The notes under the pieces are model-generated. The model was not told the origin of the DNA. It worked only from the letters and a program-made list of their open reading frames with translations, and ran no database searches. Source: a virus. Taken from it: a stretch of 64,000 nucleotides of DNA. Shown here piece by piece: positions 8,227 to 56,724 of this stretch. The DNA is taken from positions 16,993-80,992 of the IMG/VR virus record IMGVR_UViG_3300003323_000790; one strand, given 5' to 3'. How positions within the stretch are numbered: the first letter of the stretch is position 1; each line of letters starts with the position of its first letter. The position numbers and the translations under genes were made by a program.

Positions 8227-8739
8227 ATGGTTACCGATAAAGAAAAAGAACAGCGAGCCAAAGAGGCCGCCTGGAACATCGCCGCCCTGGCTGGCTCTCC
8301 TGATCTGCAGGCCTACCGCATGCTGGCTTCCAAGGTGCGCGGCCTGGCTCGACATAACTCCGCGCTGGCGGTATGGGAGATCCAGGACGGCGAGATTTAC
8401 GTCCGTAACCGCTACTTCGTCATCAACGCGGCGGCCACACTGGAGCACGGCATGCGCCTGTTCCTGCGGGAGGAAATGACCCGCGCAACCTTGGAGATCG
8501 GCCACATCCCCACCCGCCTGCCCGGCACCGACTGCTTTGTGTGGGTCCCACGCCACACCGACGCGCGCTTCTGCCCGTCGGACCCGGCGGACGTGACCAG
8601 CCACACCCGGCTCTCAATGGGCATTATGTTCGGCTGCCCGGCGCGCATCGGCACCCTGGTGGAGGGCAAGGAATACCTGACCCTTGCCCGAGACATCGAA
8701 TCTTACCGACAACAGCTGGGAGCATTGGCACATGCCTAA
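8227..8739 (+). CDS. Hypothetical protein
   Basis: 170 aa between the helicase and primase genes. N-terminal helices are charged (DKEKEQRAKEAAW), and the middle is mixed alpha/beta with no nuclease or ATPase motif I can name. It overlaps the primase start by 8 bases, so it is part of the replication operon. The upstream 41 bases contain a TAGAAT that could be a -10 box, but I find no good -35. Confidence 0.6.
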   Translation: MVTDKEKEQRAKEAAWNIAALAGSPDLQAYRMLASKVRGLARHNSALAVWEIQDGEIYVRNRYFVINAAATLEHGMRLFLREEMTRATLEIGHIPTRLPGTDCFVWVPRHTDARFCPSDPADVTSHTRLSMGIMFGCPARIGTLVEGKEYLTLARDIESYRQQLGALAHA

Positions 8740-11700
8740 TTTCATCTACTACCAAGTCAAGGGTGGTGAAGAGCGCTGGACGGTCGGACCAGCCTCGCAG
8801 GTAGAGCGCATTCGCGACGAATTCAACCCTATGTTCATCACGGCCCTGTCGGTGGCCAAGATGCCTGAAGAGCTGGAGTACGACGAGAAGCTGAAGCTGG
8901 CCTACTACGGTCCGCTCTATTTCGACTGGGATTCCGAGGACGGCGCCCACGTGATCGAGAAGGTCAACGAGATGCTCGACAACCTCGAAGAGCTAGGCCT
9001 GGACCTGCATGCCTGCCGGCTCTACGCCACCGGCGGGCGAGGCTATCACCTGGAGATCCCACCCTATCTCTTCATCGACAAAGACCCGTCCAACCGCGGC
9101 GTGGTGATGCTGCCGGCGATCTACCGCGAAATGGCGCTGGACTTGGCCGTCGACACCCTTGACCTGACGATCTATTCGACCGGGCGCGGCCGCATGTGGC
9201 GCCAGCCTAACGTCGAGCGCCAGAACGGCCGCTATAAGGTGCCGATCACGGTGGACGAAATGCGCTCGATGACCGTCGAGCGTTGCGAAGAGCTGACCTC
9301 CAAGCCGCGCTCCTTGGAAGCACCGACCAAGGCCGAGTTGTGCCTGAAGCTGAACATCAAGTACGAAGAGGCCAAGCAAAAAGTCGAGGCGCTGATGAAG
9401 CGTCGCGGCAAATTCAAGGCCGATCCGAAGGCCAAGGAGAAGGCGAATGGCCTGTCGGTCGAGATGATGCTGGCCGGCCTGGGTATCAAGGAAGGTTCGC
9501 ACTTCCAGCAGATCGCCACGCAGCTGGCGATCGTGGCGCACACGGCCGGCTGGTCGGAGAGCGATCTGGTCGAGAAAGCGCAGGGGTTGGTGAACAGCCA
9601 CCAGAGCGACGGCAATCGCTACAACAGTCCGGAGAAGCGCAACAATGAGCTGCGCCGCATGTGGCGCTACATGTACGACAACGTCTGCTACGAATTCAGC
9701 ATCGGCGCCCTGAAGGCGCTGATGTCACACTCGGCGCCCGACTTGGACAACATCCCAACGACGCGCGAAGAGCTGGAGCAGACCATCAAGGAAGAGGCGG
9801 CGGCCGAGGCGGAATCGGAAGATCAGGAGATCGACGAATACGCCGACGTCGCCGCCGGCATTTCGCTCACCAAGTACGGCGTGTACATGCAGACCGCCAC
9901 CGAAGGCAAGAAGCGCATCTGCGCTGTCTCCTTCGAGACATCGGCGGTGCTGTTCTCCACTGAGTCCGGCCAGATCGTGGCCTTCGAGGCCGAGGTGCTG
10001 GTCAACGGGCGGCCGTCGGGCCGCCAAACCCTTGAGCTGGATGTGTTCTCCGGCCTTGTGCAATTCAATCGCTTTGTGGCCCGCTACGGGCACTCATTCC
10101 AAGGCACAGATCTTCAAGTACGGACGGTTATGATGCGCTTTGTCGAGCAAGCAAAAAAGAAAGGCGAGAGCCTGTACATCGTGAAGCGGGAAGGACTTGA
10201 CCTCGTCAACATCCAGCACCACGAAAACGAACTCTACCGCAAGCCCTTCCTGGTGTGGGCTGACCACCACCAAGTCGTGCTGCAAAAAGAAATCGCCGAG
10301 TCGGGCCTGAACCTCGTCTTCACCGGCTTCCCTGATCCGCAGGGTGAGTTCAAAACCGACCTGTCACAGGCGCCGGTGCTCAAGGAGTGGATCGAAGAGC
10401 CTGGCAATAAGGAAAAGCTGCGCGACGTGCTGCAGGCGGCGATGACCTGCCAGAAGTCGGAGCTGATCGGCAAGTACATCGGCTGGTATGTGGCCTGCTT
10501 CTGGAAGCCGCTGTTCCAGGCGGCGTACGGCAAGTTCCCGCTGCTGCACGTGAACGGCGCGGCGGGCGCCGGGAAATGTATGGGGTTCAACACTCCGGTG
10601 ATCATGGCCGACGGCACCACGAAAATGGTACAGGACGTGCAGGTTGGCGACCAGTTGCTCGGACCGGACGGCGGCGTACGCAACGTGCTGTCGCTGGCGC
10701 GCGGCCGGGAGCTGATGTACCGCGTGACCCCGGTAAAGGGTGACTCGTATGTTGTAAATGCGTCACACATCCTGAGCCTGAAACGTTCAGATCGCTCCTG
10801 CCGGCTGTCGGACGGGACTCAGGTTACCGCGGCAGATGACGTCGTGAACGTCAACGTCGAGGTCTACGCACACAGTTCGGCTGCCGCCCGCAAGGCGTTG
10901 AAGGGGTGGCGCAGCGACGCGGTGGAATTCCACCGCGAGGCAGAAGACCTGCCGCTGGACCCTTACTGGCTGGGCGTATGGTTGGGCGACGGCAAGCACG
11001 ACCTGCCGCAGATCACGAAGCCAGCAGATACGAACATGGTGCGCTGGTGGATTGCCCACGCTGAGCAACATGGCCATCTGGTCTCTCGCCATGAGTATGA
11101 TGATCGCTGCCCGAGCTGGGCGGTACGCTCTAAGGACGGGCGCTGGGATGCACAAGGCAACCAGTTCACGCAGCGCCTGCAGGCCCTCGGCCTGCTGGGC
11201 AACAAGCATATTCCGGCGGCATACAAGTTCGCGCCGATGGAAGACCGCTTGCGTCTGCTGGCCGGCCTGATTGACTCCGACGGCTCCCTGGACAAGGCGG
11301 GCTACGACTGGGTCAGCAAAGACAAGTCACTGGCGGAAGATTTTGCCTTCCTCTGCCGCTCGGTCGGCCTGGCCGCTTATGTCAAGGAGTGCACGAAAGG
11401 TATCCAGTCGACTGACTTTGTGGGCACCTACTGGCGCGTGAGCGTCAGTGGGGACTGCGACAAGATCCCTTGCCTGGACAAGAAGGCGCCGCCACGCAAG
11501 CAGGCAAAGCGTGTGACGGTGACTGGCATCTCGGTGGAGCCTATCGGCGTGGACAACTACTACGGTTTCCAGATCGACGGCGATCATCTGTTCTTGCTGG
11601 GCGACTTCACGGTCACCCACAACACCGACATGACCAAGTCCTTCTCCTGCTTCTTCTACCACCAGCGCGAGCCGTACTCGACGTCGCCGACCTCGACCGT

Positions 11701-12730
11701 CTTCTCGATCACCCAGCAGATCTCCAGCACCTCGTCGATCCCCTTCGTACTGGACGAGTACAAGCCGCACGCGCTGCAGGGTGACATGGTCAACAAGTTG
11801 CGCGCGATCTTCCGAGACAGCTACAACCAGACGATGATGGCGCGCGGCGGCGGCACACGCGAGAACGACGACTACCGCCAGCTCCAGCGCACTCAGCTGT
11901 CGGCGCCGGTGGTATTCATCGCCGAGGCGGCCGAATCCGAGCCGGCCGTCATGGAGCGCGTGGTGCTGGCCACCGTGGTGCCGCCGCCGGCGTCGATGAA
12001 GAACACGTGGCGCGCGCGGTTCCAGCTGTTCCGCCAAAACCGCGAGCTGCTGGGCATCCTGGGCCAGTACCTGGCCGCCAAGGTCGTGCAGTCCTATTCG
12101 GTGGACCGCCTGCGCACGGAGTTCAACGACCTGTACGAAGAGGCTGCCAACACCTACATGCTCAACGCCGACGACATCGAGCGCATGAAGGCCGGCGACC
12201 TGGACGAAGAGCTGTCGCTCAAGGCCAACGCCAAGGAGCGCTCGGTGTACAACCACACGGTGGCCAAGTTCGGATTCCAGCAGTTCAGGAGCCTGATTAA
12301 CCAACTCTTGGGACCTGTGCTTGATGACCTGATGGGCGAACTTGAGTCCGGTCTCTACGCGCGCATGTCCGACTTGCAGGCCTCGACCACACCGGAAATT
12401 GTCCGCGTGCTGGAGACGATGTCGCGCATGACCTATGCGACGGAGGACACCCGGCCGGATGCGTTGCGCGAGAACTACGAATATGCGATTGCCGGCGACA
12501 CCTTGGAGCTGGACGCTTACTCGGCCTACACGCGTTATCGCATCTTCATGCGCCAGGCTGCCTTGCAGCCGCTCTTCCCTGACGTCTATCCATTCCTGCA
12601 GGCGATGAAGGACTTGGAGGCGTACAAGTCGACGGCGACGGGCGATCACTTGAAGCGGCCGCAGGTGATTGTGCTGTCGATCAACGCGCTGACCCGCGCC
12701 GGCGTGCCGCCATTTAAAGGCGGCAAATAA
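8732..12730 (+). CDS. AEP-type primase / helicase fusion with intein
   Basis: 1332-aa precursor, ~983 aa after loss of a 349-aa intein. The N-terminus has archaeo-eukaryotic primase signatures: FDWDSED (residues 64-70, metal ligands), GGRGYH (~101-106) and YSTGRGRMWRQPN (~150). A helical PriCT-like region follows (~240-340). The C-terminal half is an NTPase: P-loop GAAGAGK|T split by the intein, and VLDEY as Walker B. It likely primes and unwinds at the phage fork. The start overlaps the upstream gene by 8 bases. Confidence 0.82.
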   Translation: MPNFIYYQVKGGEERWTVGPASQVERIRDEFNPMFITALSVAKMPEELEYDEKLKLAYYGPLYFDWDSEDGAHVIEKVNEMLDNLEELGLDLHACRLYATGGRGYHLEIPPYLFIDKDPSNRGVVMLPAIYREMALDLAVDTLDLTIYSTGRGRMWRQPNVERQNGRYKVPITVDEMRSMTVERCEELTSKPRSLEAPTKAELCLKLNIKYEEAKQKVEALMKRRGKFKADPKAKEKANGLSVEMMLAGLGIKEGSHFQQIATQLAIVAHTAGWSESDLVEKAQGLVNSHQSDGNRYNSPEKRNNELRRMWRYMYDNVCYEFSIGALKALMSHSAPDLDNIPTTREELEQTIKEEAAAEAESEDQEIDEYADVAAGISLTKYGVYMQTATEGKKRICAVSFETSAVLFSTESGQIVAFEAEVLVNGRPSGRQTLELDVFSGLVQFNRFVARYGHSFQGTDLQVRTVMMRFVEQAKKKGESLYIVKREGLDLVNIQHHENELYRKPFLVWADHHQVVLQKEIAESGLNLVFTGFPDPQGEFKTDLSQAPVLKEWIEEPGNKEKLRDVLQAAMTCQKSELIGKYIGWYVACFWKPLFQAAYGKFPLLHVNGAAGAGKCMGFNTPVIMADGTTKMVQDVQVGDQLLGPDGGVRNVLSLARGRELMYRVTPVKGDSYVVNASHILSLKRSDRSCRLSDGTQVTAADDVVNVNVEVYAHSSAAARKALKGWRSDAVEFHREAEDLPLDPYWLGVWLGDGKHDLPQITKPADTNMVRWWIAHAEQHGHLVSRHEYDDRCPSWAVRSKDGRWDAQGNQFTQRLQALGLLGNKHIPAAYKFAPMEDRLRLLAGLIDSDGSLDKAGYDWVSKDKSLAEDFAFLCRSVGLAAYVKECTKGIQSTDFVGTYWRVSVSGDCDKIPCLDKKAPPRKQAKRVTVTGISVEPIGVDNYYGFQIDGDHLFLLGDFTVTHNTDMTKSFSCFFYHQREPYSTSPTSTVFSITQQISSTSSIPFVLDEYKPHALQGDMVNKLRAIFRDSYNQTMMARGGGTRENDDYRQLQRTQLSAPVVFIAEAAESEPAVMERVVLATVVPPPASMKNTWRARFQLFRQNRELLGILGQYLAAKVVQSYSVDRLRTEFNDLYEEAANTYMLNADDIERMKAGDLDEELSLKANAKERSVYNHTVAKFGFQQFRSLINQLLGPVLDDLMGELESGLYARMSDLQASTTPEIVRVLETMSRMTYATEDTRPDALRENYEYAIAGDTLELDAYSAYTRYRIFMRQAALQPLFPDVYPFLQAMKDLEAYKSTATGDHLKRPQVIVLSINALTRAGVPPFKGGK
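10577..11623 (+). mobile_element. Intein 2 with LAGLIDADG endonuclease, in the primase-helicase P-loop
   Basis: 349 residues from Cys (CMGFNTPVIMADG) to Asn (GDFTVTHN), next extein residue Thr. Block B-like VNASHILSLKR. Two LAGLIDADG helices are visible: YWLGVWLGDGK and LLAGLIDSDGSL. The insertion splits the Walker A Lys from Thr, a common intein target. Unlike intein 1, the endonuclease is in frame. The extein residue is Thr, compatible with splicing. Confidence 0.9.
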
Positions 12731-42800: not shown

Positions 42801-43817
42801 CGCCTGCACGAACTTGAGCTGGTACTCGACTTCTTTGCCGACGGTCACCACATTCTTGAGGGACGCGGCCAGCGCGGCGCCAGCCGCCAGCGGGATCAGG
42901 CTGCCGTAGGTCAGCCACAGGCCGCCCAAGGAGCCCGCCAAGCCGCGCGCCAGTGCGTGGCCTTCGGCCATTGCTTCGTTGTGCGCGGCGATCGCCGCCG
43001 TGCTGGAGGCGGCCGCCGGCGGCATGGCAGCCAGTTGGCGCCGCAGCTCTGCCAGGTTGGCGCCGGCGGCGGCGCTGCCGTAGCGCTCCGATGCGTTGCC
43101 GCCGAGGCTGCCATAGACGGCCGCCTTCTCGGCCGTGGCGATTTGGCTGGCCAGGCTGGAGGTGGTGAAGTTGGTGTTGAGCACGCGCTGCTTTTCAGCG
43201 GCAGCGGCCTTCTTGGCTTCCAGATCGAGCGTATTCTGCCAAGAGGCGGCAGCCGCTGCTTCTTCCAGTGCGCGCCGCTTGCGAAGCTCGGCTTCCAAGG
43301 TAGCGGTCTTCTTGGCTTCGAAGCTGAGCAAGGTTTGCCACGAGGCTGCAGCGGCGGCCTCGCTGATAGCAGCAGCGCGGTCATAGCTGGCTTGCAGCGC
43401 GGCGGCGCGCTTGTTCTCAGCCGCCATCTCGGCTTCCAGCTCCTTCATAGCCGTGGCGGTTGCTTTATTGATCCGGGCCGAGGCAGCGGCCTCCTGCGCT
43501 GCCTCGGCGGCGGCGTAGAACTTGTTGCGGTCAAACAGCATCTTGTCGAGACCCTTCTCGACAGCGGAAGCTTCTTCGGCTGCGGCGGCTTTGGCGCTGG
43601 CTACGCGCCGGCCCTGGGCGGCCGTCTGGACGGAAAGGATCTCGGTGAGAGAGGTGGAAATGGTCTTGACCATCGCCTCCATTTGCTGGGTGAGCGAGGC
43701 CAGCGCGGTCTCGCGCGCGGCAAGCTTGTCGAACGACGAGGCGACCCGATCGATGGCATCTGCCATTCGCTTTAGGTCGTCTGCGCCGCTGGCATTGATG
43801 CTGTTGTTCTCGTCCAT
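36846..43817 (-). CDS. Tail tape measure protein
   Basis: 2323 aa, the longest gene. The first ~250 residues are Ala/Glu/Lys coiled coil. Hydrophobic segments lie at ~660-730 (LAMGVLGPLALLIGGL). At ~1750-1925 three near-identical ~60-residue repeats carry QAQLYE(L/I)TGDKAAAAAVLEQ, with a weaker fourth. At ~2165-2218 is a DUF4214-like unit (FYRNILEREPDAPGLANWI), followed by KGGMAYGVSLVGERGPELV, typical of tape-measure ends. It sets tail length and helps DNA entry. Its Shine-Dalgarno (AGGGG) is inside a hairpin. Confidence 0.93.
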   Translation of the reverse strand: MDENNSINASGADDLKRMADAIDRVASSFDKLAARETALASLTQQMEAMVKTISTSLTEILSVQTAAQGRRVASAKAAAAEEASAVEKGLDKMLFDRNKFYAAAEAAQEAAASARINKATATAMKELEAEMAAENKRAAALQASYDRAAAISEAAAAASWQTLLSFEAKKTATLEAELRKRRALEEAAAAASWQNTLDLEAKKAAAAEKQRVLNTNFTTSSLASQIATAEKAAVYGSLGGNASERYGSAAAGANLAELRRQLAAMPPAAASSTAAIAAHNEAMAEGHALARGLAGSLGGLWLTYGSLIPLAAGAALAASLKNVVTVGKEVEYQLKFVQALSQEAVPLDNFLAISGGTVVGIKDAAEGMRALAQNGLSVKDSLAVLPAVLNLATIGEMGVEQAALAATGALSAFGLQIGDIERVGDILAKTAASSNTSVAAMTESLKQGSIAASLYGVSIEETSAALGTLAKINIVGSQAGTAYSNLLTSLYAPTKQATKALDELGVSAKNVDGSLKNSSVLLAELRNALSKYNESAQANYIGDITNNRGAKAVSTLLQYLDDYEKKIQEARDATGFMSDAVTTLGDSTEGAFKRLKNSMDETFIRAFSQSQPALQALVDGLAQVARSEGATRILTNLAAGTVSLAQGAVSSAKEIGVLVAAVSTVTLGMKAWTGATTLYTTALAGAEAATITFTTATRLAMGVLGPLALLIGGLTLAYQLYNAEIDKQEQANQKIQNSTRTRIDMLDSENKSLEKRIELIREKLRLEGDKGDQPAAPTTLQAAAEAMNRLNAAAAAAKKTVDNAMSPTKEMLANYANLSKQAEEAQANYYKLSAAETANKGLNAEQKTLNDRAALIKQLEDLAKKSEVIKTIGGKDVAVEDQSNEAARGKAAEALDILEKFKSNSLTYTQALAAYTETRRDYNASLQDRPKTATNDELNAQVQQLQGAKQLFDIQQRTKTLELDAARAAGRVGELEYLRQKTTLERQSLTVAYDTAMSEAALMSAADKKRGAEQKYTNQANDAIEKGKQLLIQQAAAEQAYFTQLDKENLTRQADALQARGQLVDAYLLKFEADTSQTVSGLQSNIKALESDITKALESGDTSNVDDLLEKLGKLNTALNAISQRRSAGVDTALFAQLKTQFDTLINSIQGAVQEAQAKGTEEGGLAGMLGVSDAAESIQRKLLPTTKELWAQLKAIAETSNNPELAKAFEEINKKYQQQVNTLEKATKPFGDTWKSIWKTVDQSAHDAFVSWGKSGVDTMKKIKEAIKTSILDMLYQLTIKKWIIEISTNVTGALSSITSGGSALSTLLGGSSESTGAAGGSSTMASILGGASNLFTIGKAIYGGLTSGITGSLASSISSAGSLFGSEALSAFGAGMQGGALGAGTASASSGYAGSAAASYGAGAAKAIPIVGWIIAGMEAANSFMKQGFTPNNGTITNPIFKAISAPTNLVYSSLSKLGVGSTLANILSGAAINTKLFGRADPVVTSQGVRGTISDTGIAGGESYANILEKGGWFRSDKRYTNTAALPSDFSNSLVSGFTQVKVAAAGYAAVLGLSTDVLKDYTKAFDISLGSDQTKNTDAITAFFAQVGDELSTKLLPSIASFSKVGEAASATLQRLAGDYKSTDTIAQLLGKTGVQAFGAIGIASLTAREQFINMSGGIDALSSKLTSYSQNYLTTQEQNAPVIAALNAEFAKLNVKVPTTREEFKALVSGLDLTDAAQVSTFNSLMDLQAAFAQVTPAVDKAAETANILSQQAQLYELTGDKAAAAAVLEQQHQLALKGMSAELAAATQAVWGAQKATAAREDQKSILDQQAQLYEITGNKTAAAAVLEQQHQLALQNMSVELAAATQAVWDAQKAEAAKKEALDEQKAILEQQAQLYEITGDKAAAAAVLEQQHQLALKDMSAALAEATKATWAAQASQQANQQRTQDMLSELQLQSQISEALGNSAGKAAAQIAIQTLQLQGLTPALAALNKELYVAQASKGVTDAYQDLVTKSQSAVDALTKFADSLDNLQQTLNQGDLSTLTPEQKLAKAKVTYEDTVAKAIAGDETAQGNLSSVAQDYLKASRAYNASNPTYAADATRVQNDITKLATSTRSQISVQKDILATAKAQLDALGLQTSTTASGLQAVADAVKALGQAIATLNSTKDIKTPSGDPSQASHSAIELAITSFYRNILEREPDAPGLANWIEAYNKGVSLDTIASDFYKSDEYLSKHSHAKGGMAYGVSLVGERGPELVDFTHPAQVYPAAQTAGMFARGPQASYDPVARQLLESLVREAQAANAQRAAIAEREEELAAADLDEQRRAQRVARSNNSKN
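37930..38575 (-). repeat. Tandem ~60-codon repeats in the tape measure gene
   Basis: Three close copies (about 38425-38575, 38257-38400 and 38065-38220) of a unit encoding QAQLYE-x-TGDKAAAAAVLEQ and QHQLAL-x-MSAELAAAT, plus a degenerate copy (LQSQISEALGNSAGKAAAQ) toward 37930. Boundaries are approximate. Confidence 0.85.
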
Positions 43818-43821
43818 AGAA

Positions 43822-43861
43822 GAAGCCCCTCAGTAGATACGGATTATCGCTGAGGGGCTTC
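43822..43861 (-). promoter_or_regulatory. Hairpin hiding the tape measure Shine-Dalgarno
   Basis: 12-bp stem GAAGCCCCTCAG/CTGAGGGGCTTC with a 16-base loop. The 3' arm holds AGGGG 8 bases before the tape measure ATG. The -10 box of a promoter (43843-43848) is in the loop, so locally started RNA lacks the 5' arm. It could also act as a partial terminator. Confidence 0.7.
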
Positions 43862-43871
43862 CTATTGGCAA
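43843..43871 (-). promoter_or_regulatory. Tape measure promoter
   Basis: Minus strand: TTGCCA, 17 bases, GATAAT (5/6 matches each to the sigma70 consensus). Predicted start near 43836, between the two arms of the hairpin. Confidence 0.65.
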
Positions 43872-43875
43872 CAAC

Positions 43876-44705
43876 TTATGCCTTCATCGTGACGCCGGCG
43901 GCCTTACGCATTTCGTCTAGGCTGCCTGATTTGGCATGCTTGGCCGCGTGGCGCTCCCGGAATACTTGATCCATGTTCTGGACGTACAGCAACAACTCTG
44001 CATACTCGTCCGGATCAAATATCCCAAGGGCCCAGCAATGCGCCTGAACTTCTGAGACAGGGACTGCCAGAGGCTGGCCTTGGTCGAATCGCCGGCTGTG
44101 GCTGAGTTCTCGGTATATCTGCGCAAAGTAGCTTTGCCGGAACGTCAGGACTGGGCGGCGGTCCAGATAGGCTGGCCTGGGAATCCCTGATTTTGCCAGG
44201 TATTCTAGGTCAGCTGCACTGTGCTTTCCGCCCCAGTCAAGTTCCCACTCGATGTGGGCACGGAGTTTTTTGCGTTTTCATCCTCCTGCTGAACCAGGAA
44301 GCTGCGATGGCTTTCTGCGATGCGAGTGATCACCGCGCGGAAGTCTTTGATGGCCAGCAGCTCTTCTGCTGCTTCCGTCGAGTAGGGCAGTGGGTTGCCC
44401 TTACGGTCGGTCATGCCGGCCCAGTTCAGCAGCACGGTCTTGGCCAGCGCGGTACCTACCAGCTTGAAAGCCAGATCGTCGCCAGCCTTGCGCTCTTCCT
44501 CGGTTGCGTCATCCGCTTGACCACGCTTCAGAGTTTCTTCGTTGGCCTTCCACATAGCCGACAGCAGGCGGGAGTAGGCGCGATTGCCGGCGCGCGCGAT
44601 GGTGCAGGTGACGCCTGGGCCAAAACCCAGCTCTTTATCGAATACGCGGCCCTTTTCCTCTGCAGTCAGGTCGGTCTCGAAAGCTTTGAAGGGGTTGAAA
44701 GACAT
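43876..44705 (-). CDS. Tail assembly chaperone fusion (GT-type, by -1 frameshift)
   Basis: The frame beginning at 44705 meets A-AAA-AAC (forward 44265-44271) and can slip back one base. The -1 frame then runs 129 codons to a TAA at 43876: LRAHIEWELDWGGKHSAADL ... MRKAAGVTMKA, with coding-quality composition but no start of its own. The 276-aa product (147 + 129) matches the G/GT scheme of long-tailed phages: chaperones that coat the tape measure before tube assembly. It directly precedes the tape measure, as expected. Confidence 0.85.
44205..44705 (-). CDS. Tail assembly chaperone (G-type, unshifted)
   Basis: 166 aa from the ATG at 44705 (AGGAG 8 bases upstream; the longer ORF start is not supported). 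Helical: FKAFETDLTAEEKGRVFD, then TIARAGNRAYSRLLSAMW. The last 19 residues follow the slip site and are replaced in the fusion. Product in excess over the GT form is typical. Confidence 0.85.
   Translation of the reverse strand: MSFNPFKAFETDLTAEEKGRVFDKELGFGPGVTCTIARAGNRAYSRLLSAMWKANEETLKRGQADDATEEERKAGDDLAFKLVGTALAKTVLLNWAGMTDRKGNPLPYSTEAAEELLAIKDFRAVITRIAESHRSFLVQQEDENAKNSVPTSSGNLTGAESTVQLT
44265..44271 (-). promoter_or_regulatory. Ribosomal -1 frameshift site AAAAAAC
   Basis: Heptamer of the X-XXY-YYZ type, in the correct zero frame (GCA AAA AAC). AGCAGGAGGAT begins 19 bases upstream on the mRNA; its AGGAGG could act as an internal stimulatory Shine-Dalgarno. Confidence 0.82.
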
Positions 44706-44734: not shown

Positions 44735-44763
44735 AGAATATCATTCTTTTCTGAAAGTGTCAA
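44735..44763 (-). promoter_or_regulatory. Promoter of the chaperone genes
   Basis: Minus strand: perfect TTGACA, 17 bases, TATTCT, about 30 bases before the ATG at 44705. Confidence 0.8.
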
Positions 44764-44832
44764 AAAGAAGTGCCGACGGGACATCCACACCGCCAGCACC
44801 TAAACCCTAGAAGCTCAGCATACGACTAAAAT

Positions 44833-44861
44833 AAAAAAGGCGCAACCTGAAAGGTTGCGCC
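44833..44861 (-). terminator. Rho-independent terminator after the tail tube gene
   Basis: Minus strand: GGCGCAACCT/AGGTTGCGCC 10-bp stem, 3-base loop, then TTTTTT. It isolates the tail tube unit from the chaperone unit. Confidence 0.92.
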
Positions 44862-44876
44862 AAACCCACGACAGAA

Positions 44877-46115
44877 TTAGAACAGGTTAGGCACCGCAAC
44901 GCCGACGCGATCGATGAACAGCGTCTGGCGCAAGGTTGCGTCAGCATTGCCCATGTCGCCGTAGGCTTCGTATTCAAACGATAGCATCATGTCGCCGTCC
45001 TTGGCTTCCGCGTTCACCTTGCCCGAGGTCAGGTTGACGCGTGGCAGGCTGAATACATAGCCGTTGCCTGCGGTGTCCTGCACCGACAGAACCACCGAGG
45101 TGTAAGCGTCCGAAATGAACTTGGTGTAGATCGCGGCGTCGGCGAAGTAGACTTCCATCGAACCCTTCACCATGAAGGTGCCCACGCCGATACCTGCGTA
45201 GCCCAGCGTACCGATCGCCTCTTGACCACGCAGGCTATTGTCGATGTCCAAGGTCATCGACTTGATCGCCGTGCCGGTGATCGGCGCACCACCTTCCCAC
45301 ACCTGAGCCACGCCCGACACCGCGTTGGTGATGTCGTAGGGCTTCGAGGCGACGGTCGTGCCTGGCATCGAGGTGACCGTGGTCGGCGCGCCCGACGACT
45401 TGCCCATGAACGAGAAGGTCGCTTCCACCAGTGAGCCCGAGGCAAACGAAGTCGAGAATTTCGACACGGCCATACCAGTGAAGGTGAAGAACTGGCCGAC
45501 GTCGGCTGCGGCACGCTCGAAGGAGAACGTCGGCATCGTCACGCCGTTCGACAGGCGGCTGGACTGGATAGCGCAGTTGGCCACGGCCGAAGCGACAGCT
45601 GCCGGCGTGCCTGCGTCCAGGGTGATCACCGTCGCGGTTGGTGCCGTAACCGTCGAGACGCGCAGCAGTCGGCCATTGTTCGCGTTGCTCGGCGCCAGCA
45701 GGCGGAACCACTGGCCTTTTTTCAGGTTGGTGAACGCATTAGCTCCGGTGGTGGCCACCGAAGCGGTGATGGTGGTGGCGGTGAAGTCCGCAGTGAAGGT
45801 CGTGCCGACACCATTGGTGCCGAACATGACCCAGTCGTTCTGCATCAGGCCGGCGAGCAGCGGATCGTATTCGGCGTACTGCATGTGGACTTTCAGATCA
45901 CCGGCGGCGTTCGCGCTGACCGTGGTGGTGGACGACAGCTGGCGGTCCGAGCGGATCTCTTTGTCGGCCTGCTTGGTCAGGTTCCAGTTGAAGGTCTCGC
46001 CGGTCATGCGCAAATATGCGCCGTTGCCCGAGGTAGGCAACACACCGAAGTCGCTTTCCTTGATGTAGGTTAGCTGGGCACGGTTGGTCGAGGAAAAGTG
46101 GTTAGCAGCGGTCAT
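44877..46115 (-). CDS. Major tail (tube) protein
   Basis: 412 aa, rich in Thr, Ala, Gly and Val. LTYIKESDFGVLP near the N-terminus and the DKEIRSDRQLSSTTTVSANAAG stretch (residues ~38-58) are hallmarks I associate with siphovirus tail tube proteins; the rest is beta-sandwich-like. It has its own terminator, in keeping with high expression. The 69 bases upstream hold no strong promoter, only a weak extended -10 (TGCTAAACT). Confidence 0.85.
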   Translation of the reverse strand: MTAANHFSSTNRAQLTYIKESDFGVLPTSGNGAYLRMTGETFNWNLTKQADKEIRSDRQLSSTTTVSANAAGDLKVHMQYAEYDPLLAGLMQNDWVMFGTNGVGTTFTADFTATTITASVATTGANAFTNLKKGQWFRLLAPSNANNGRLLRVSTVTAPTATVITLDAGTPAAVASAVANCAIQSSRLSNGVTMPTFSFERAAADVGQFFTFTGMAVSKFSTSFASGSLVEATFSFMGKSSGAPTTVTSMPGTTVASKPYDITNAVSGVAQVWEGGAPITGTAIKSMTLDIDNSLRGQEAIGTLGYAGIGVGTFMVKGSMEVYFADAAIYTKFISDAYTSVVLSVQDTAGNGYVFSLPRVNLTSGKVNAEAKDGDMMLSFEYEAYGDMGNADATLRQTLFIDRVGVAVPNLF

Positions 46116-48420: not shown

Positions 48421-48449
48421 ATTATGGCACGCTCTTTGCTACAAAGCAA
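48421..48449 (-). promoter_or_regulatory. Promoter of the neck gene unit
   Basis: Minus strand: TTGCTT, 17 bases, CATAAT. The -35 lies in the T-tract side of the upstream terminator. Start of the 47908-48393 gene is 28 bases downstream of the -10. Confidence 0.7.
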
Positions 48450-48476
48450 AAACCGGACCAATGGTCCGGTTTTTGC
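48446..48476. terminator. Strong bidirectional terminator
   Basis: GCAAAAACCGGACC/GGTCCGGTTTTTGC 14-bp stem, AAT loop. It ends the minus-strand gene at 48477 and works as U-tract in both directions. Confidence 0.9.
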
Positions 48477-48881
48477 TTACTTCTTGCCTTTTGGCTCGGC
48501 TGGCGCCGGGGCCGGTTCGGTGGCAGGCTCGGTGGCAGGCTCGGCTGGGGCCGGTGGCTCGCTCAAGGCTGGTGCGTCCGGGTGGGCCTCGTTATAGGCT
48601 TCCCGCAGAGTGGTCATGTCCTTGGTGACGTTCGGCTCCTGTACCAGCGCCAGCACGCCTTGGTCTTCGTCGTCGGTCTTGAGCATGACGGGCTGATCGA
48701 TCATCCACTGCGTCGGGTTGATCTTGTACTTGATGCCCGGCTCGAAAGGGAAATTGGTCTGGTTCTCCGGACCGGCTTCCTGATCTTGGTGGACCTTGCG
48801 GGTCGGGTCGACCATACGATATGCCGCAGTGTTGATGTACCACTGTGCATTAGGTCCAGTGTCAATTACCTTGAGCTCCAT
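48477..48881 (-). CDS. Hypothetical head-region protein with Pro/Ala/Glu tail
   Basis: 134 aa. The first ~95 residues are a folded part (NAQWYINTAAYRMVDPTRKV; FPFEPGIKYKINP). The tail repeats EPAT/EPAP units and ends KGKK. Single-gene unit with its own promoter and terminator inside the head cluster, so probably an abundant virion or capsid-associated protein. No family recognised. Confidence 0.6.
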   Translation of the reverse strand: MELKVIDTGPNAQWYINTAAYRMVDPTRKVHQDQEAGPENQTNFPFEPGIKYKINPTQWMIDQPVMLKTDDEDQGVLALVQEPNVTKDMTTLREAYNEAHPDAPALSEPPAPAEPATEPATEPAPAPAEPKGKK

Positions 48882-48988: not shown

Positions 48989-49141
48989 ATGAGTACCTTA
49001 ATTAATTTCCGAGTGTCGCCGGAGCTGTTAGAAGAGGCTAAAGCACTAGCAGCTTCGATGGACCGCTCACTCGCTTGGGTGATCAGGGACTTGCTGAAGA
49101 AAGCAATCGCCGCTTCGGAGGAGAAGAGTGATGCCCAGTAA
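48989..49141 (+). CDS. Ribbon-helix-helix DNA-binding protein (50 aa)
   Basis: MSTLINFRVSPELLEEAKAL, then AASMDRSLAWVIRDLLKKA: a beta strand and two helices in the Arc/MetJ/CopG pattern. GGAG precedes the ATG. It overlaps the GIY-YIG gene by 11 bases and shares its promoter, so it may autoregulate the island. It is on the strand opposite to all surrounding structural genes. Confidence 0.8.
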   Translation: MSTLINFRVSPELLEEAKALAASMDRSLAWVIRDLLKKAIAASEEKSDAQ

Positions 49142-50120
49142 CTACCGCACCGAAGATCCTGCAGATGTCTTGGCTGTCGGCCAGTGGGCTCCACTGGCCG
49201 ACGCCGCAAGGCGTGTGCCCTGCGGCGCCGGCTTATACATCGTAAGGCACAGGGCGTCTGGCAAAGAGTATGTCGGCCTCAGTAAGAATGTCTACACTCG
49301 GCTGGACTCTCATCGCCGAGCTGCTTCGGGGTCGTTCCTTCACCGCGCAATCCGCTGCTATGGTGTAGACGCCTTCGAGGCGTGCTTATACATTCAGGCA
49401 GAGCCAGACGATCTCGGCGAGCTGGAACGCATGCTAATCGAAGAGCGTAACACTGCCGCTCCGAACGGATACAATCTGACCCTTGGTGGAGACGGTCTCT
49501 GGGGCTACACTCCTTCAACCGAAACCCGGCAGAAACTGCGCATGGCGCTTCTGGGTCGAGAAGTGTCGGAGTCCGTACGTCTAGCGGTCGCTGAGTCCAA
49601 TCGGCGTCGGGGTCAGACACCTGAAGCACGTGCAAAGATAGCCGCCTATGGCAGGACCAGAACTGCTTCGCCAGAAACACGGGCGAAGATGAGCCGGTCG
49701 CAGATGGGCCACGCGATCACTGAAGAAACCAAGCGGAAAATCGCCGCAACAAAAATCGGTATCCCACTCTCAGAAGAGCATCGACGTAAAATGTCGGAAG
49801 CCTTGAAGGGTCGCATAATCTCTGAGGAACACTGTCGAAACCTCAGCGCCGCGCTGAAAGGCAAGCCCAGGTCTGCCGAGGCTCGCGCAGCTTACTGTCT
49901 AGCTAAACAGAGACAGTTACGAGACGATCCCGCAACGTTCAGCCACCTGAACGGCGGCGGTGCTCGGCCGGTGGTTGTCACCGAACTTGATGGACAAGAG
50001 TTAGAATTCACGTCAGGCAAAGCTGCCAGCATCCACTATGGGCTTGGTCGGCACTACGTGCCCGTCAGTATTCGGATTGGGCGTAAACTGCCTGGAGGGC
50101 AGAGCGTACGGTGGAAATAA
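49131..50120 (+). CDS. GIY-YIG homing endonuclease with NUMOD3 repeat array
   Basis: 329 aa. GIY-YIG nuclease at ~30-115 (GLYIVRHRASGKEYVGLS, Arg and Glu further on, N-G-Y-N-L-T-L-G-G at ~108-116). Then about eight NUMOD3-like units of ~17 residues each (for example LSEEHRRKMSEALKGR) to ~265, and a C-terminal NUMOD1/HTH-like part (SGKAASIHYGLGRHYVPV). The repeats should wrap along the target DNA. Inserted between capsid and head genes on the other strand, with its own promoter and terminator. Confidence 0.9.
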   Translation: MPSNYRTEDPADVLAVGQWAPLADAARRVPCGAGLYIVRHRASGKEYVGLSKNVYTRLDSHRRAASGSFLHRAIRCYGVDAFEACLYIQAEPDDLGELERMLIEERNTAAPNGYNLTLGGDGLWGYTPSTETRQKLRMALLGREVSESVRLAVAESNRRRGQTPEARAKIAAYGRTRTASPETRAKMSRSQMGHAITEETKRKIAATKIGIPLSEEHRRKMSEALKGRIISEEHCRNLSAALKGKPRSAEARAAYCLAKQRQLRDDPATFSHLNGGGARPVVVTELDGQELEFTSGKAASIHYGLGRHYVPVSIRIGRKLPGGQSVRWK

Positions 50121-50161: not shown

Positions 50162-51403
50162 TTACGAGATAGTAAGCACGTCAAAAGGAGTCAGATCATT
50201 GTCAGAATATAAACGTGCGACCTCTTCCGACCAGTGCCAGACGGCCGTGGTCGTGCGCTTGAGTGCAAACGCTTCCGAGGCTTGGTAATCCGCTTCAGTG
50301 TTCTTCAGGAACATGAACGCTTGCGCCTTGTCCAGCGCCCACACGGTGTTCGCTGGCACTGGGCCGCCGTCGGTCGCAGCATCCACGATCACCCACTGCA
50401 CGTCGCCGCCAAAGGTCGGGTTGCCCGGCAACAGTTGAGGGTCAATACGGGCCAGGGTCGGGTCGTAGTTGTTCGTGCCTGGGCGGCCCGTGCGGGACTC
50501 AATCTTGAGATAGGAGTCCAGATCCGCTATTACGTGAGTGATGCGGCGTTTCTTGCGATTGCGGGCCAGGAACTTCAGCCAGGCCTTGTGGGTCATCACG
50601 CCGCCGGTGGCATTGCTGTCCAGCGAGTTCGAGGTGACGGCCGACACGGCGCCGATGTTCATGTCCAGGTCGCCGGCGAACAAGTTGGTCAGGTAGCGGT
50701 ACGCGCGCTTGTCTTTCTCGATTTGCATGAAGCGAGAAATTGTCAGAGTGAAAAGATCCAGGGTTGTATTTTTTACAGCATCATCGGTCATTTCGACGCC
50801 GATACCGTAGGTTGGGATCTTTTTGTAGCGATCCGACGTGCCCAGGAACAGAACGACCGGCACGTTGGCGCCTTGCACGAAGCGCGACTCGCCTGCACCG
50901 AAGGCGCCGGTGTTGGCACCGCCTGCGTTCTGGTAGCTCAGCACAGGTTGGGTGAAGGTCGAGCCGATGATCGGCACGGTCATCGCAGCCATCGCCTGCA
51001 CGTTGGCGTAGTCGGTCACGCGATCAGGCTGGATCGAGTCTTCGATCGCCTGGATCACGAAAGCTGGGAACAGCGAACGCGACTGCACACCGAACGGATC
51101 GGTTTTGCGGCCCACGTTGGTTGCTGCTTGCACGCCAGCCTTACCTTCGAAGATATCGTGCAGCGAGACCGAACCGGTGCCGGTGCCGAAGTAGTCTTTC
51201 TGGGTCGACAGCTGCAAGCCGTTCGAAGCGCAGATCTGCTCGAACGCCGAGCCGTACGCGCGGTCGGCGTCCGGGAACATACGGTTGATTAGCTGCGGTA
51301 CGGTGACGCGAGCGGTTGCCGCTTCACTGTACAGGTGGGCGTGGATCTTGTCGTCCGGGATTTCTTGGCGGCCGCCAGTGGCCGCGTCCATGATGAAAGT
51401 CAT
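50162..51403 (-). CDS. Major capsid protein (HK97-fold)
   Basis: 413 aa, in the canonical slot after protease/scaffold and decoration genes. AFVIQAIEDSIQPDRVTDY, TFTQPVLSYQN and the C-terminal EAFALKRTTTAVWHWSEEV segment fit capsid proteins of Chi-like siphophages. No processed N-terminal delta domain is obvious, consistent with a separate scaffold. AAGGAG precedes the start. Confidence 0.85.
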   Translation of the reverse strand: MTFIMDAATGGRQEIPDDKIHAHLYSEAATARVTVPQLINRMFPDADRAYGSAFEQICASNGLQLSTQKDYFGTGTGSVSLHDIFEGKAGVQAATNVGRKTDPFGVQSRSLFPAFVIQAIEDSIQPDRVTDYANVQAMAAMTVPIIGSTFTQPVLSYQNAGGANTGAFGAGESRFVQGANVPVVLFLGTSDRYKKIPTYGIGVEMTDDAVKNTTLDLFTLTISRFMQIEKDKRAYRYLTNLFAGDLDMNIGAVSAVTSNSLDSNATGGVMTHKAWLKFLARNRKKRRITHVIADLDSYLKIESRTGRPGTNNYDPTLARIDPQLLPGNPTFGGDVQWVIVDAATDGGPVPANTVWALDKAQAFMFLKNTEADYQASEAFALKRTTTAVWHWSEEVARLYSDNDLTPFDVLTIS

Positions 51404-51969: not shown

Positions 51970-52587
51970 TTATTTAGCGGCACGGGCCGCAGCAGCGCGG
52001 GCCAGCTGTTCAAACTGCGGGGATACCTGAACCTTGGTATTCTTGTCGTCGGTCTTCGCTGCGGCTGCAGCGGCGCCGCCGATCGGGAAGGCGGCCTCGA
52101 AGGCGGCCTTGGCTTTCGGGTATTCGGCGATCACGGTGGCAGCGTCCATCGCGGCTGCGGCGTCTTTCGAACCACCCATCGGGATGTACATTTTGGTGAT
52201 GCCTTCGCGGGCCAGCGCCAACAGGCCGGAATGGGTTGCTTCCATCGCGGTCATCTTGGCCTTCAGGGTCGCGTTTTCGGCGGCCAGGCGGGTGGCTTCC
52301 TCGGTCTTGGCGGTCACCTGGGCGATCAGCTGCGCGGTAACGTCCGGCGGCGCGGCGGCTGGATTTGCGGCCAGCTTCGCGGCGGCCTCGGCGGCGGCCT
52401 TTGCGGCAGCTTCGTTCGCGGCGGCGAGCGCAGCCGCTTGGCCTTTGTCGTCCGCGGCGGCGGCAGCGGTTTCAGCGCGTACGGCTTCGTGGTGGGCTGC
52501 GATCTGCTCGGCGGAGAAACCCAAGGATTCCAGGGTCGCGCCGGCGGCGATGGCAGCTACTTGCGTTTCGTTCAGAGTGATTTTCAT
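51970..52587 (-). CDS. Nested scaffold protein (internal start in the protease gene)
   Basis: In-frame ATG at 52587 (MKITLNETQVAAIAAG), preceded by AAAGGTG, gives a 205-aa protein equal to the C-terminal coiled coil. This matches the lambda C/Nu3 and related arrangement in which protease and scaffold share a C-terminus. Independent translation is inferred, not shown. Confidence 0.6.
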   Translation of the reverse strand: MKITLNETQVAAIAAGATLESLGFSAEQIAAHHEAVRAETAAAAADDKGQAAALAAANEAAAKAAAEAAAKLAANPAAAPPDVTAQLIAQVTAKTEEATRLAAENATLKAKMTAMEATHSGLLALAREGITKMYIPMGGSKDAAAAMDAATVIAEYPKAKAAFEAAFPIGGAAAAAAKTDDKNTKVQVSPQFEQLARAAAARAAK

Positions 52588-53433
52588 GGCAGCACCTTTT
52601 GAATTGGAGGAAGTATCTTTCTTGACAGAATTCTTGTCAAGCAATTTTAATGCCTGCTCGAAATTTGCAACGCGATCAACCAAGCCGGCCTTCACGGCAG
52701 CCTGCCCGAGGAAGGTTCGACCATCGGTTGCAGTTTCGAGTTGTTTGGCCGTCAGGTTCGGGCGGCCGGCCTGGACTTGCGCGACGAACATGTCGTGCAG
52801 CTGCCCAAGTTGTTCGAGAGCGTAGGCTTCAGCTTCGCTGCTGAGCGGCTCGTAGGCGTTCATGCGTGCCTTCATCGGCACGCTGCGCAGCACCTTGACG
52901 GTCACGCCCGCGTCGGCCAGTTGCTTGCTGCGTTCCATTGCGATTTGCAGCACGCCGATCGAGCCGATCTCGGCCGTCGGGCCGGCGGTCTTGAGGCCAT
53001 TGATGGAGCTCATCAGCCAGTAGCCGGCGCTGCCAACTAAGCTGGAGCCGTGCGCGGCTGATGGCTTGGCCTTGGACACGGCGCCCAGCAGATTGCCAAG
53101 GTCGGCCACGCCTGCCACTTCGCCGCCTGGCGAGGTGATGTGGAACATGATCTGCTTGACTTCGGGATCGGCGGAGATTTCCGCCACTGCGTTGGCGATG
53201 TCGGCGTAGCCTAGCACGCCGAACAGCTGGCCCCAGCCGGCCGAGCCGTTAATGAGGCTGCCCTTGATGTTCATGACGGCCGTGCTGCCCACTTTCTGCC
53301 ACAGAGGCGGCAGGTCAGTTTTTGCCGGGCTGGCATCCCAACGCCCGGCCAGACGGCCTTCAGCCACCATCTTCATGGTGGCCTGGGCGCTTTCAAATGA
53401 GGCTTCAGTGCCGAGCCAGTATTGGTAGTTCAT
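51970..53433 (-). CDS. Capsid maturation protease (S49 family) with scaffold C-terminus
   Basis: 487 aa. Residues ~50-270 are an SppA/ClpP-type S49 protease: VMNIKGSLING, ITSPGGEVAG (oxyanion), catalytic Ser in GSAGYWLMSS and TAEIGSIGV. Residues ~283-487 are Ala/Glu/Lys coiled coil. It processes scaffold and perhaps itself during head assembly. The portal gene overlaps its start by 4 bases. Confidence 0.88.
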   Translation of the reverse strand: MNYQYWLGTEASFESAQATMKMVAEGRLAGRWDASPAKTDLPPLWQKVGSTAVMNIKGSLINGSAGWGQLFGVLGYADIANAVAEISADPEVKQIMFHITSPGGEVAGVADLGNLLGAVSKAKPSAAHGSSLVGSAGYWLMSSINGLKTAGPTAEIGSIGVLQIAMERSKQLADAGVTVKVLRSVPMKARMNAYEPLSSEAEAYALEQLGQLHDMFVAQVQAGRPNLTAKQLETATDGRTFLGQAAVKAGLVDRVANFEQALKLLDKNSVKKDTSSNSKGAAMKITLNETQVAAIAAGATLESLGFSAEQIAAHHEAVRAETAAAAADDKGQAAALAAANEAAAKAAAEAAAKLAANPAAAPPDVTAQLIAQVTAKTEEATRLAAENATLKAKMTAMEATHSGLLALAREGITKMYIPMGGSKDAAAAMDAATVIAEYPKAKAAFEAAFPIGGAAAAAAKTDDKNTKVQVSPQFEQLARAAAARAAK

Positions 53434-54965
53434 TGCTTGGTCCCTTTCGGCGCCTGCGCCGGCTTATTACGGTTGCTTCCGATATTCGAGGTGGTGCTGG
53501 TGGCGTTCGGATCGGCGTTAGGGTCGGCCGGCGCGGCGCCGTCCATGAAGTAGGTGCCCGAGCGCGGCTTGAATCCGGGTGTCGGCAGCGCGCCCGTTGT
53601 GCGCAAGCAGTATTCCTCGTCGGTGATGTAGCCGTCCGACAGCTTCTGGCGCCAGAACGCGTCTTCCATCTGGCGATAGGCCCACAGTTCGCTCTTCGGG
53701 CGCAGCTCGATCTCGTCATAGATGAACTCGACCGTCACGTCCAGGCCCATCAAGCGGCAGGCCAAGGTGAGCCACTTGCTGTGTAGCTCCATCAGCTTGA
53801 CGCGGATCATACCGTTCACGGAGGCCAGGAACATCTGGACTTCCGCGTTGGCCGCTGAGGCGCTGCTGGCGCCGGTGCCGAGCACGGAAGCCGGCGTCTT
53901 GGTGGCCACGGCGATCTTGCTCGTGTAGATGTCCGGGATCGTGTTGAGCAGCTCGGGCGTGTCGGTCTGGTCGCCTTCGATGTAGGTGACTTTGAAAAAG
54001 TCGTAGTGCACCAGCGCGTCTTCCACGCCCAGTGTCTCGATCAGCGAGGTCAGCTCCTGCAGCTGCTGATCCATCCAGGCCTTGTGCTTGGTCGGGTCGA
54101 CCGCGATCTGCGGTGGCACACGCTTGGTCAGCTTCTCTTCGTCGATGCTGATGTCGAAGCGCTTGTAGATGTGCCGCGCGCACAGCCGGCGCAAGTCGGA
54201 TAAGAAGGTTGCCGAGGCCAAGGTTGGCTGGATGGCGCTTTCCATCGGGCTCTGCGGGTAGGCGTCCAGCAGGTCCGGGTCCACCGCGACGCGGAAATAG
54301 GTCGGCACGTCGAGGTCGATCTCGTCGCCGCCGATGCGCTGCACTGGCTTGATCGCCTTGTCGTCTTCGTAGAAGTAGACGTGCTCTTCGGCCACCGGCT
54401 GCAGTGCGAACGGCATGCGCTGCTTGTCTAGCACCAGCTCAAGGCCGGCCGCGCCGTTTTGCCACAGCTGGATGCCCAAGGCCTCATCTACGCTGCGCAT
54501 GCTGGCGACGTGGCTAAAACCATTCTCGTAGTCCGAGATGTAGTTCATGCGGCCGAGAAGCTGCAGCGCCAGGCGCGTGGCGTCCACGTTGAAGCTGTTG
54601 TCCGGATTGCGCGCGATGGCGATCCGGCCTTCCGGAATGCCTAGGCGGATGTGCGCCGCCCGGCTGGCGGCCATTTCCGGCACCGCGCGCGTCAGGTTGC
54701 GGATGATGGTGACATTGTCCGCGCCGGTGCGATAGGTGCTGGTGATGTCGACGTTCGCTACATCGAAGCTTTTCTTGGCGATGCGCGCAGGGTTCGGCGC
54801 CGTGTTGGTCCGCCAGTCTGGATACGTCTCGCCGCCCGGTGCGGTCGGCTTTGGCGGTGCGATGGGCGGAAGTTGCGTTGCCGCCAGGCGATCAGGCTTA
54901 CTGGCCCGATCCTTGGGAGGATCGGGCAACATGAAGGTTCCGATGGCTTTGAGCAATTTTCGCAT
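53430..54965 (-). CDS. Portal protein
   Basis: 511 aa, next to the terminase gene. Pro-rich N-terminus (~15-60), central alpha/beta stem and clip region (AAGLELVLDKQRMPFALQPV; FRVAVDPDLLDAYPQSPM), a long helix (~330-420) and a flexible Asn/Ala/Pro tail. The dodecameric ring through which DNA is packed. Family call rests on position, length and pattern. Confidence 0.85.
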   Translation of the reverse strand: MRKLLKAIGTFMLPDPPKDRASKPDRLAATQLPPIAPPKPTAPGGETYPDWRTNTAPNPARIAKKSFDVANVDITSTYRTGADNVTIIRNLTRAVPEMAASRAAHIRLGIPEGRIAIARNPDNSFNVDATRLALQLLGRMNYISDYENGFSHVASMRSVDEALGIQLWQNGAAGLELVLDKQRMPFALQPVAEEHVYFYEDDKAIKPVQRIGGDEIDLDVPTYFRVAVDPDLLDAYPQSPMESAIQPTLASATFLSDLRRLCARHIYKRFDISIDEEKLTKRVPPQIAVDPTKHKAWMDQQLQELTSLIETLGVEDALVHYDFFKVTYIEGDQTDTPELLNTIPDIYTSKIAVATKTPASVLGTGASSASAANAEVQMFLASVNGMIRVKLMELHSKWLTLACRLMGLDVTVEFIYDEIELRPKSELWAYRQMEDAFWRQKLSDGYITDEEYCLRTTGALPTPGFKPRSGTYFMDGAAPADPNADPNATSTTSNIGSNRNKPAQAPKGTKQ

Positions 54966-54999: not shown

Positions 55000-56724
55000 T
55001 CAACCTCGGCGTACCGGCACCTGACCGCCCATCTTGCAGCGGAAGGCTAGGGAGAAGCCCTCGGCGGGCAAGCTCCAGGAGGCGGTGGGTGCTAGGCGAC
55101 ATGCCACGTGCAGGTAGCCGACTGAATGCCAGAAGTGGTCTTGCGCCATTTTTGATTTTTCCCACGTGTAGGCCATGCCGCCGTCTTTTTTGAAAATTTG
55201 CCCGCGCGTCATGTCAAGGCAGTGGCCGACAAAGACGGCGTCGTCTTCCGTGGTTGTGGAGGCCCAGCGCACACGACCGGCCTTGAACATGAACATGATC
55301 TCGTCGAAATTGAGGTCGCGGTGGATCTTGGCTTGGCTGACCGGCAGCTTGCCCTTGGCGGCTTCTGCCTCCACTTTCTTTAGCTCATAGGTCGCCAGTT
55401 GGGGATTGTCGTGGTAGACCCCGCCCCACAGATTCTGGTCAACCAGTTGCATCTGCATGACCATGTAGGTTTCCGGGAAGGCGTCGATGACAGTCATGAC
55501 GACGCTGTACTGGATCATCAGCTCGATTTTACGCGTCGGTAGGTTGGCTAAGCTGCAACGTTCTTTGTGGACAATCAGCAACATACCGTCTTGCGTGATC
55601 CGGCCGACCGAAATGTGGCAAGTCTGACCGACGTCGATCCCCATGCAGTGCACTTCGCTTGACCGCATGCTGCCTTGTGGCAGGACGGAGCCCATCAAGT
55701 CGGTTTCCGTCAGGCTGCTGTTATCCGAGTTGGAAGTTTCACCTAGCGCTTGGTTCTGGAATTCGGCCCAGCTCTCGTAGTTGGTGATCTCTTCGACCAG
55801 CTTGGGGATGGTGACGATGTTCGGGAAGGCAAAAGGCGTGACAAAATAGCCGATATCGATGTGGTTTTCGTTCACATTTTCGACCACCCAGTTGCGGTGC
55901 TGGCGCTGCAAGGATGGGACTTTGTCACATTTCGGGCAATGCACGGACGCTTTCTTGTAGTTGAGCATCTGCAGCATGTGACGTGTGATGTCCTCTTTTT
56001 TGCCCTCGAAGCCTGGAATGCGCACGTGATCGTGAAAATTCGGTAAAAACCAGTGGTTGCAGTGGTTGCATTTGGTCAAGTAATGTCGGCGCATGGAGGT
56101 TTCCATGTACTTGGCAATACCGCGCTTGGCCGCTGTCGGCGTGCCGAACCGGCGCGTCATCTGGAATTTGCCGTGTTTCAGGCGCGACTGATACTGGCCC
56201 AAGGTGGCGCGGTCACTCCGGTCCACTTCGTCGTGGATCAGCAGCTCGGCCGGCACCGAGAGCGCCGTCGTGTTGCCGATAGTGCCCTTGAAGTACATGT
56301 AGCTGGTGCCGATCGACTTCAGCTCTGAATTATCGATGTTGCGATCCAGCAGCTCGCGCAGTGCCGGGCTCTCGGTCAGGATTGGATCGATACGTGTCCG
56401 GACAAAATTGCTGGCGTCGGTCGCGCTCGGCATGGTCTGGATGACGTTAAAGTAGGGCAGCATGGCCGCCAGGCCAAGCCCGTAGCGGGACATGGCTTCG
56501 GACATACCGACCTGTGCGCATTTTTGGACGTTCACTACCTTATTGGTGTCGGATAGGATGTCCGCCTGCACTTCGTGGTCCTTGAAGCTGAACCGACTGC
56601 CTTGGAGGAAGGTCTTGTCTTCCAGAAACTTGACCACGTCCTTCAGGTCATAGGTGTTCAGGACGTCGGTTTTGAGCTTGCTGAGGTGAGTCAGCAGCTT
56701 TTTGTCACTGGCCAGGTGGTCCAT
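55000..56724 (-). CDS. Terminase large subunit (GpA-like)
   Basis: 574 aa. N-terminal ATPase: variant Walker A QKCAQVGMSE (67-76) and Walker B LLIHDEVD (161-168). A zinc-binding insert (CNHCNHWF ... CPKCDKV, ~219-270) is typical of lambda GpA-type terminases. The C-terminal nuclease starts at CMGIDVGQT (~362). It cuts and pumps DNA into the head. The upstream small gene overlaps its start by 20 bases. Confidence 0.9.
   Translation of the reverse strand: MDHLASDKKLLTHLSKLKTDVLNTYDLKDVVKFLEDKTFLQGSRFSFKDHEVQADILSDTNKVVNVQKCAQVGMSEAMSRYGLGLAAMLPYFNVIQTMPSATDASNFVRTRIDPILTESPALRELLDRNIDNSELKSIGTSYMYFKGTIGNTTALSVPAELLIHDEVDRSDRATLGQYQSRLKHGKFQMTRRFGTPTAAKRGIAKYMETSMRRHYLTKCNHCNHWFLPNFHDHVRIPGFEGKKEDITRHMLQMLNYKKASVHCPKCDKVPSLQRQHRNWVVENVNENHIDIGYFVTPFAFPNIVTIPKLVEEITNYESWAEFQNQALGETSNSDNSSLTETDLMGSVLPQGSMRSSEVHCMGIDVGQTCHISVGRITQDGMLLIVHKERCSLANLPTRKIELMIQYSVVMTVIDAFPETYMVMQMQLVDQNLWGGVYHDNPQLATYELKKVEAEAAKGKLPVSQAKIHRDLNFDEIMFMFKAGRVRWASTTTEDDAVFVGHCLDMTRGQIFKKDGGMAYTWEKSKMAQDHFWHSVGYLHVACRLAPTASWSLPAEGFSLAFRCKMGGQVPVRRG

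Follow-up and report, generated by a model that had tools for sequence, protein, structure and literature searches.

Hairpins that hide a ribosome binding site on RNA arriving from upstream, with internal promoters whose messages omit the 5' arm, are known from T4 e, I-TevI and segB and from mobE of Aeh1 (PMC3014915, PMC2988022). The hairpins of T4 soc and 49 are listed alongside these e-type cases, and the effect of the hairpin at e is reviewed as about 100-fold (PMC3014915, PMC2988022). The start regions of T4 genes 25 and 26, which are late tail (baseplate) genes, are also sequestered in hairpins (PMC2988022). In the literature searched, with most subscription papers outside its reach, no report was found of a hairpin of this kind at a tape measure gene, and the promoter-in-hairpin switch is described only in T4-like phages. 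The tape measure protein is present in few copies per tail and must stay in proportion to the tail assembly chaperones, a balance for which frameshifting and coupled translation are the usual explanation.

In the window analysed here (64,000 nt, positions 16993-80992 of an 80,992-base virus record), a hairpin precedes the tape measure gene that is probably a cis-acting translational block with a predicted promoter built into it. As in T4 e, soc, 49, I-TevI and segB and Aeh1 mobE, the Shine-Dalgarno (SD) sequence and/or the start codon lie in a stem of the read-through RNA, and as in e, I-TevI, segB and mobE there is a promoter, here a predicted one, whose RNA omits the 5' arm. What sets the present case apart is that the tape measure gene is concerned, in siphoviruses that are not related to T4, and that a sigma70-like promoter takes the place of a T4 late one; the RNA reading in would also derive from another structural gene, with no early/late separation evident. 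The starts of T4 genes 25 and 26 are sequestered as here, but these are not tape measure genes. The comparison with gene e made in the initial annotation was apt, e, soc, 49 and I-TevI being documented cases (PMC3014915, PMC2988022).

Table 1. Late-module genes and regulatory elements of the window
Feature	Coordinates	Strand	Basis or remark
Terminase	55000-56724	-	
Portal	53430-54965	-	
S49 protease	51970-53433	-	
Capsid	50162-51403	-	
Tail tube	44877-46115	-	
Intrinsic terminator 3' of tail tube gene	44839-44861	-	score +51; isolates G/GT unit
Promoter TTGACA-17-TATTCT upstream of G	44735-44763	-	top-scoring site of window, sigma70-like; TG precedes -10
Tail assembly chaperone G	44205-44705	-	phrog_313, phrog_8233
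-1 frameshift heptamer A_AAA_AAC	44265-44271	-	in slip phase, index 473 from 44744
GT extension of tail assembly chaperone, -1 frame	43876-44268	-	Phage_TAC_18 and tail chaperonin matches
-35 element TTGCCA	43866-43871	-	between chaperone stop and hairpin
5' arm of hairpin (GAAGCCCCTCAG)	43850-43861	-	14 nt past chaperone stop codon
Loop of hairpin, 16 nt	43834-43849	-	holds -10 and predicted start site (~43836)
-10 element GATAAT	43843-43848	-	17-nt spacer; within loop
3' arm of hairpin	43822-43833	-	carries SD AGGGG (within CTGAGGGGCTTC)
Tail tape measure protein, 2323 aa	36846-43817	-	ATG start 43817; tblastn to tape measure proteins

The late genes of the window are on the minus strand (Table 1). 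The chaperone is encoded as G and, through a -1 frameshift site, as GT, which ends in TAA at 43878-43876 and has a Phage_TAC_18 match slightly below the cut-off. G/GT probably starts its own transcript, since a strong terminator and the best sigma70-like promoter lie between the tail tube gene and G, and this transcript meets no obvious stop before the tape measure gene. Terminators are also annotated at the tail tube/G junction in Sansa and Seuss. Residues 270-617 of the window tape measure match residues 278-648 of that of phiVP505. An in-frame ATG at 43766 is a possible alternative start, although the similar offset of the conserved domain (residue 270 counted from ATG 43817, 278 from the Vibrio GTG) speaks for 43817. 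Elsewhere in the late module, a GIY-YIG homing endonuclease, free-standing and bearing a NUMOD3 motif, is encoded on the opposite strand beside the capsid gene (49131-50120, +), and a perfect 17-bp inverted repeat with a 1-nt loop, probably a terminator, is found between late genes at 48444-48478. Intein/Hint domains are encoded on the plus strand both within a helicase-like protein (5837-8185) and within a protein of 1332 aa that carries a LAGLIDADG endonuclease (8732-12730).

The two arms form a perfectly complementary 12-bp stem with AGGGG 8 nt ahead of the ATG. This stem had been proposed in the initial annotation, where the minus strand was implied, and both the complementarity and folding bear it out. 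On folding, it lengthens to 14 pairs, a 4-bp inner stem is added, and the ATG is partly paired. The 141-nt region is more stable than all of 200 shuffles (z-score -4.4). Perfect stems of at least 12 bp with loops of 3-20 nt occur at a mean of 0.075 per shuffled 64-kb window versus about 8 distinct sites in the real one; the stem is thus unlikely by chance, but is one of several in the window. Occlusion was computed as the cost of freeing the SD-to-ATG stretch, and of the 103 starts that automatic, approximate gene calling gives for the 81-kb record, that of the tape measure ranks first (26.4 kcal/mol versus a mean of 8.5, sd 4.5). Opening costs 26.8 kcal/mol on the read-through RNA versus 6.5 kcal/mol on RNA from the predicted start site, and stays at 5.8-6.7 kcal/mol for RNAs starting anywhere from 43833 to 43838. 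No Rfam match was found at the gathering score, the sole sub-threshold match being at an unrelated terminator (44832-44893). The hairpin is not a repeated or mobile element, searches of the window and of phages, plasmids and viral contigs having found no second copy.

The sequence and placement of the promoter also agree with what had first been described, a TTGCCA-17-GATAAT element with its -10 in the loop. It ranks 9th of 127,940 promoter-like positions on both strands by an approximate E. coli matrix. Both among shuffled intergenic sequences and among places drawn at random from the window, an equally good promoter with its -10 so placed has a frequency of 0.025%, a rough estimate from 1 hit in 4000 each. 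By sequence match and placement, it is a predicted promoter whose RNA omits the 5' arm.

The nearest group by capsid protein is that of the ~82-kb Vibrio siphophages SHOU24, phiVP505, PS14A.1, 51E28.4 and K120 (27-29% identity to that of the window; PMBT3, Lana and UAntarctica reach at most 23% across most of the protein length). In these, the gap of ~60 nt between GT and the tape measure gene is occupied by a long hairpin, different in sequence from that of the window, whose pairing takes in both the SD (GAGGA) and the GTG start. Opening costs 25-28 kcal/mol on full-length RNA versus ~5-7 kcal/mol from a local start in the five distinct relatives, and in each of the four loci ranked no start is more occluded than that of the tape measure (25-27 kcal/mol; next start at most 19 kcal/mol). 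Among the five sequences, both sides have changed at four base pairs: A-U/G-C, G-C/C-G and C-G/U-A in the outer stem, and G-C/A-U in the inner. In all, 96% of cells in the stem are paired versus 35-54% in slid controls. The compensations may be few events, as three of the four pairs are adjacent and split the same two lineages. The outer 3' arm is coding (GTG AGC TTT versus GTG GCT TTT); its change is tracked by the 5' arm, which is non-coding, and this is the strongest sign that selection acts on the pairing itself. Covariation of the stem, which the initial annotation had looked to relatives for, is therefore positive for the equivalent Vibrio stem.

The best promoter-like site in the Vibrio gap, [GC]TGACT-17-TANACT, is present in all four loci scanned, with the predicted start in the loop past the 5' arms. 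Its TGACTAA core, in a stretch that is neither paired nor coding, does not vary, whereas the columns beside it do; taken singly, the scores are modest, being reached by 1.4-2.9% of shuffles. Ahead of the capsid gene, the Vibrio loci examined (L037:15961, L039:143, L034:3474 and L032:20258) have a conserved TTGAAC-17-TAGACT. The resemblance suggests that the gap element and the capsid-gene element are one promoter class, and the latter is possibly a late promoter of the group. In both the window and the Vibrio phages, folding places the SD in a stem on upstream RNA, as a gene e-type switch requires. The proposed promoter-in-hairpin switch gains support from the difference in opening cost and from the shared layout in the Vibrio phages, where base changes are compensated; as anatomy it is well supported, and its promoter is a predicted one.

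The hairpin might instead be an intrinsic terminator or attenuator of the chaperone transcript, with the nearby promoter restarting transcription and the hidden SD a by-product. Its GC-rich stem closes the G/GT unit and is followed by the T-rich stretch CTTCTTCTAT, the Vibrio stems finish GGCTTTT or GAGCTTT, and the same phage uses a terminator followed by a promoter at the tail tube/G junction. However, terminator scores are -10 to -22 for the window hairpin and -8.5 to +0.8 for those of Vibrio, versus +51 and +40 for two clear terminators, that after the tail tube gene and one in L003, and with negative scores the window hairpin does not have the stable GC stem with a strong U-tract that marks an intrinsic terminator. 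In Vibrio, moreover, the start codon and the codons just after it are part of the stem, and the non-coding arm matches the changes of the coding arm, which argues against termination as the function of the stem. This explanation is therefore unlikely, although partial attenuation could act together with a translational block. That the inverted repeat serves as a protein-bound operator over the promoter, and not as an RNA element, is very improbable. A 40-bp interrupted palindrome does overlap the promoter, but the half-site GAAGCCCCTCAG, even when cut to TGAGGGGC, is single-copy in the 81-kb record, the 28-bp spacing of half-sites is no whole number of helical turns, and relatives preserve the pairing and not the sequence.

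A block without an internal promoter was also considered, in which the hairpin would reduce tape measure translation on a single polycistronic RNA and be opened now and then, either by ribosomes shifting frame into GT or through RNase cleavage, so that the tape measure is tied to GT output. The distance from stop to stem is alike in the window (14 nt) and in Vibrio (~14-17 nt), and in most other relatives the GT stop and tape measure start overlap or nearly abut, as in translational coupling. A ribosome at a stop codon covers only ~10 nt beyond it, however, so that one parked on the GT stop leaves the main stem shut, with a computed 24 kcal/mol remaining. The promoter among the ten best of the window and the conserved Vibrio -35 are also left unaccounted for, and this explanation appears more doubtful still than termination.

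Under the preferred reading, a translational block with its own promoter, RNA from the chaperone promoter at 44763 would traverse G/GT into the tape measure gene and fold, so that the SD, and weakly the AUG, would be sequestered by a stem of about -24 kcal/mol. On finishing GT, a ribosome would halt 14 nt before the stem, which would stay unmelted. Polymerase at TTGCCA-17-GATAAT would start at ~43836, beyond the 5' arm, giving a local message with a leader of ~19 nt and an exposed SD. Tape measure output would then be fixed by its own promoter in place of chaperone-coupled translation, and the purpose may be separate dosing, with few tape measures and many chaperones. Two purposes had been put forward in the initial annotation: silence of the read-through RNA until the local promoter fires, and limitation of tape measure dose relative to the chaperone. 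The former, as early/late timing, is unsupported because the upstream RNA is itself structural (tail chaperone) and both promoters are sigma70-like; separate dosing fits better and is most likely what the arrangement serves.

Close relatives were sought in viral_contigs via GT, tail tube, capsid, terminase and the tape measure C-terminus, with none or only distant ones found, and a genome_contigs search gave one distant locus. The window hairpin sequence has no match elsewhere, leaving no alignable relative for its own stem. The first relatives found suggested a private oddity, a view reversed once capsid and portal searches reached the Vibrio group. In most of the more distant relatives the GT stop touches, overlaps or nears the tape measure start with no such hairpin, and where the hairpin is absent the opening cost of that start is at most 13.4 kcal/mol. 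Seuss, Lana, PMBT3, UAntarctica and the loci L006, L007 and L009 have the coupled G-GT-tape measure arrangement of many tailed phages. The gene order is that of the window, and the -1 frameshift chaperone is common to the window and, as annotated, Seuss; unlike the window, all seven lack the hairpin, and their GT stop overlaps the tape measure start or is separated from it by a few nt. In L003, a strong terminator (6391-6417) lies ~45 nt ahead of the tape measure start, beside an apparent inserted opposite-strand gene.

The window and Vibrio hairpins are alike in layout and structure and not in sequence, at a capsid identity of ~28%, and the capsid tree is compatible with shared descent of the two as well as with convergence. 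More tentatively than for the switch itself, a group of ~80-kb siphophages may have swapped chaperone-coupled tape measure translation for a promoter-in-hairpin insulator, with dosing from the gene's own promoter and silent read-through RNA, the structure and layout, not the sequence, being kept across phages with different hosts. A hairpin and promoter at the chaperone/tape measure junction in two distant lineages would be a second, testable way of dosing the tape measure and, if true, would place the T4 lysozyme-type switch in use outside T4-like phages.

The hairpin at the GTG would also explain why annotated tape measure starts are too far downstream in several Vibrio phages. In K478b, K404, K120 and K45 (L035, L038, L041 and L042, respectively), the annotated ATG is 75 nt downstream of the conserved GTG, and the start is probably misplaced.
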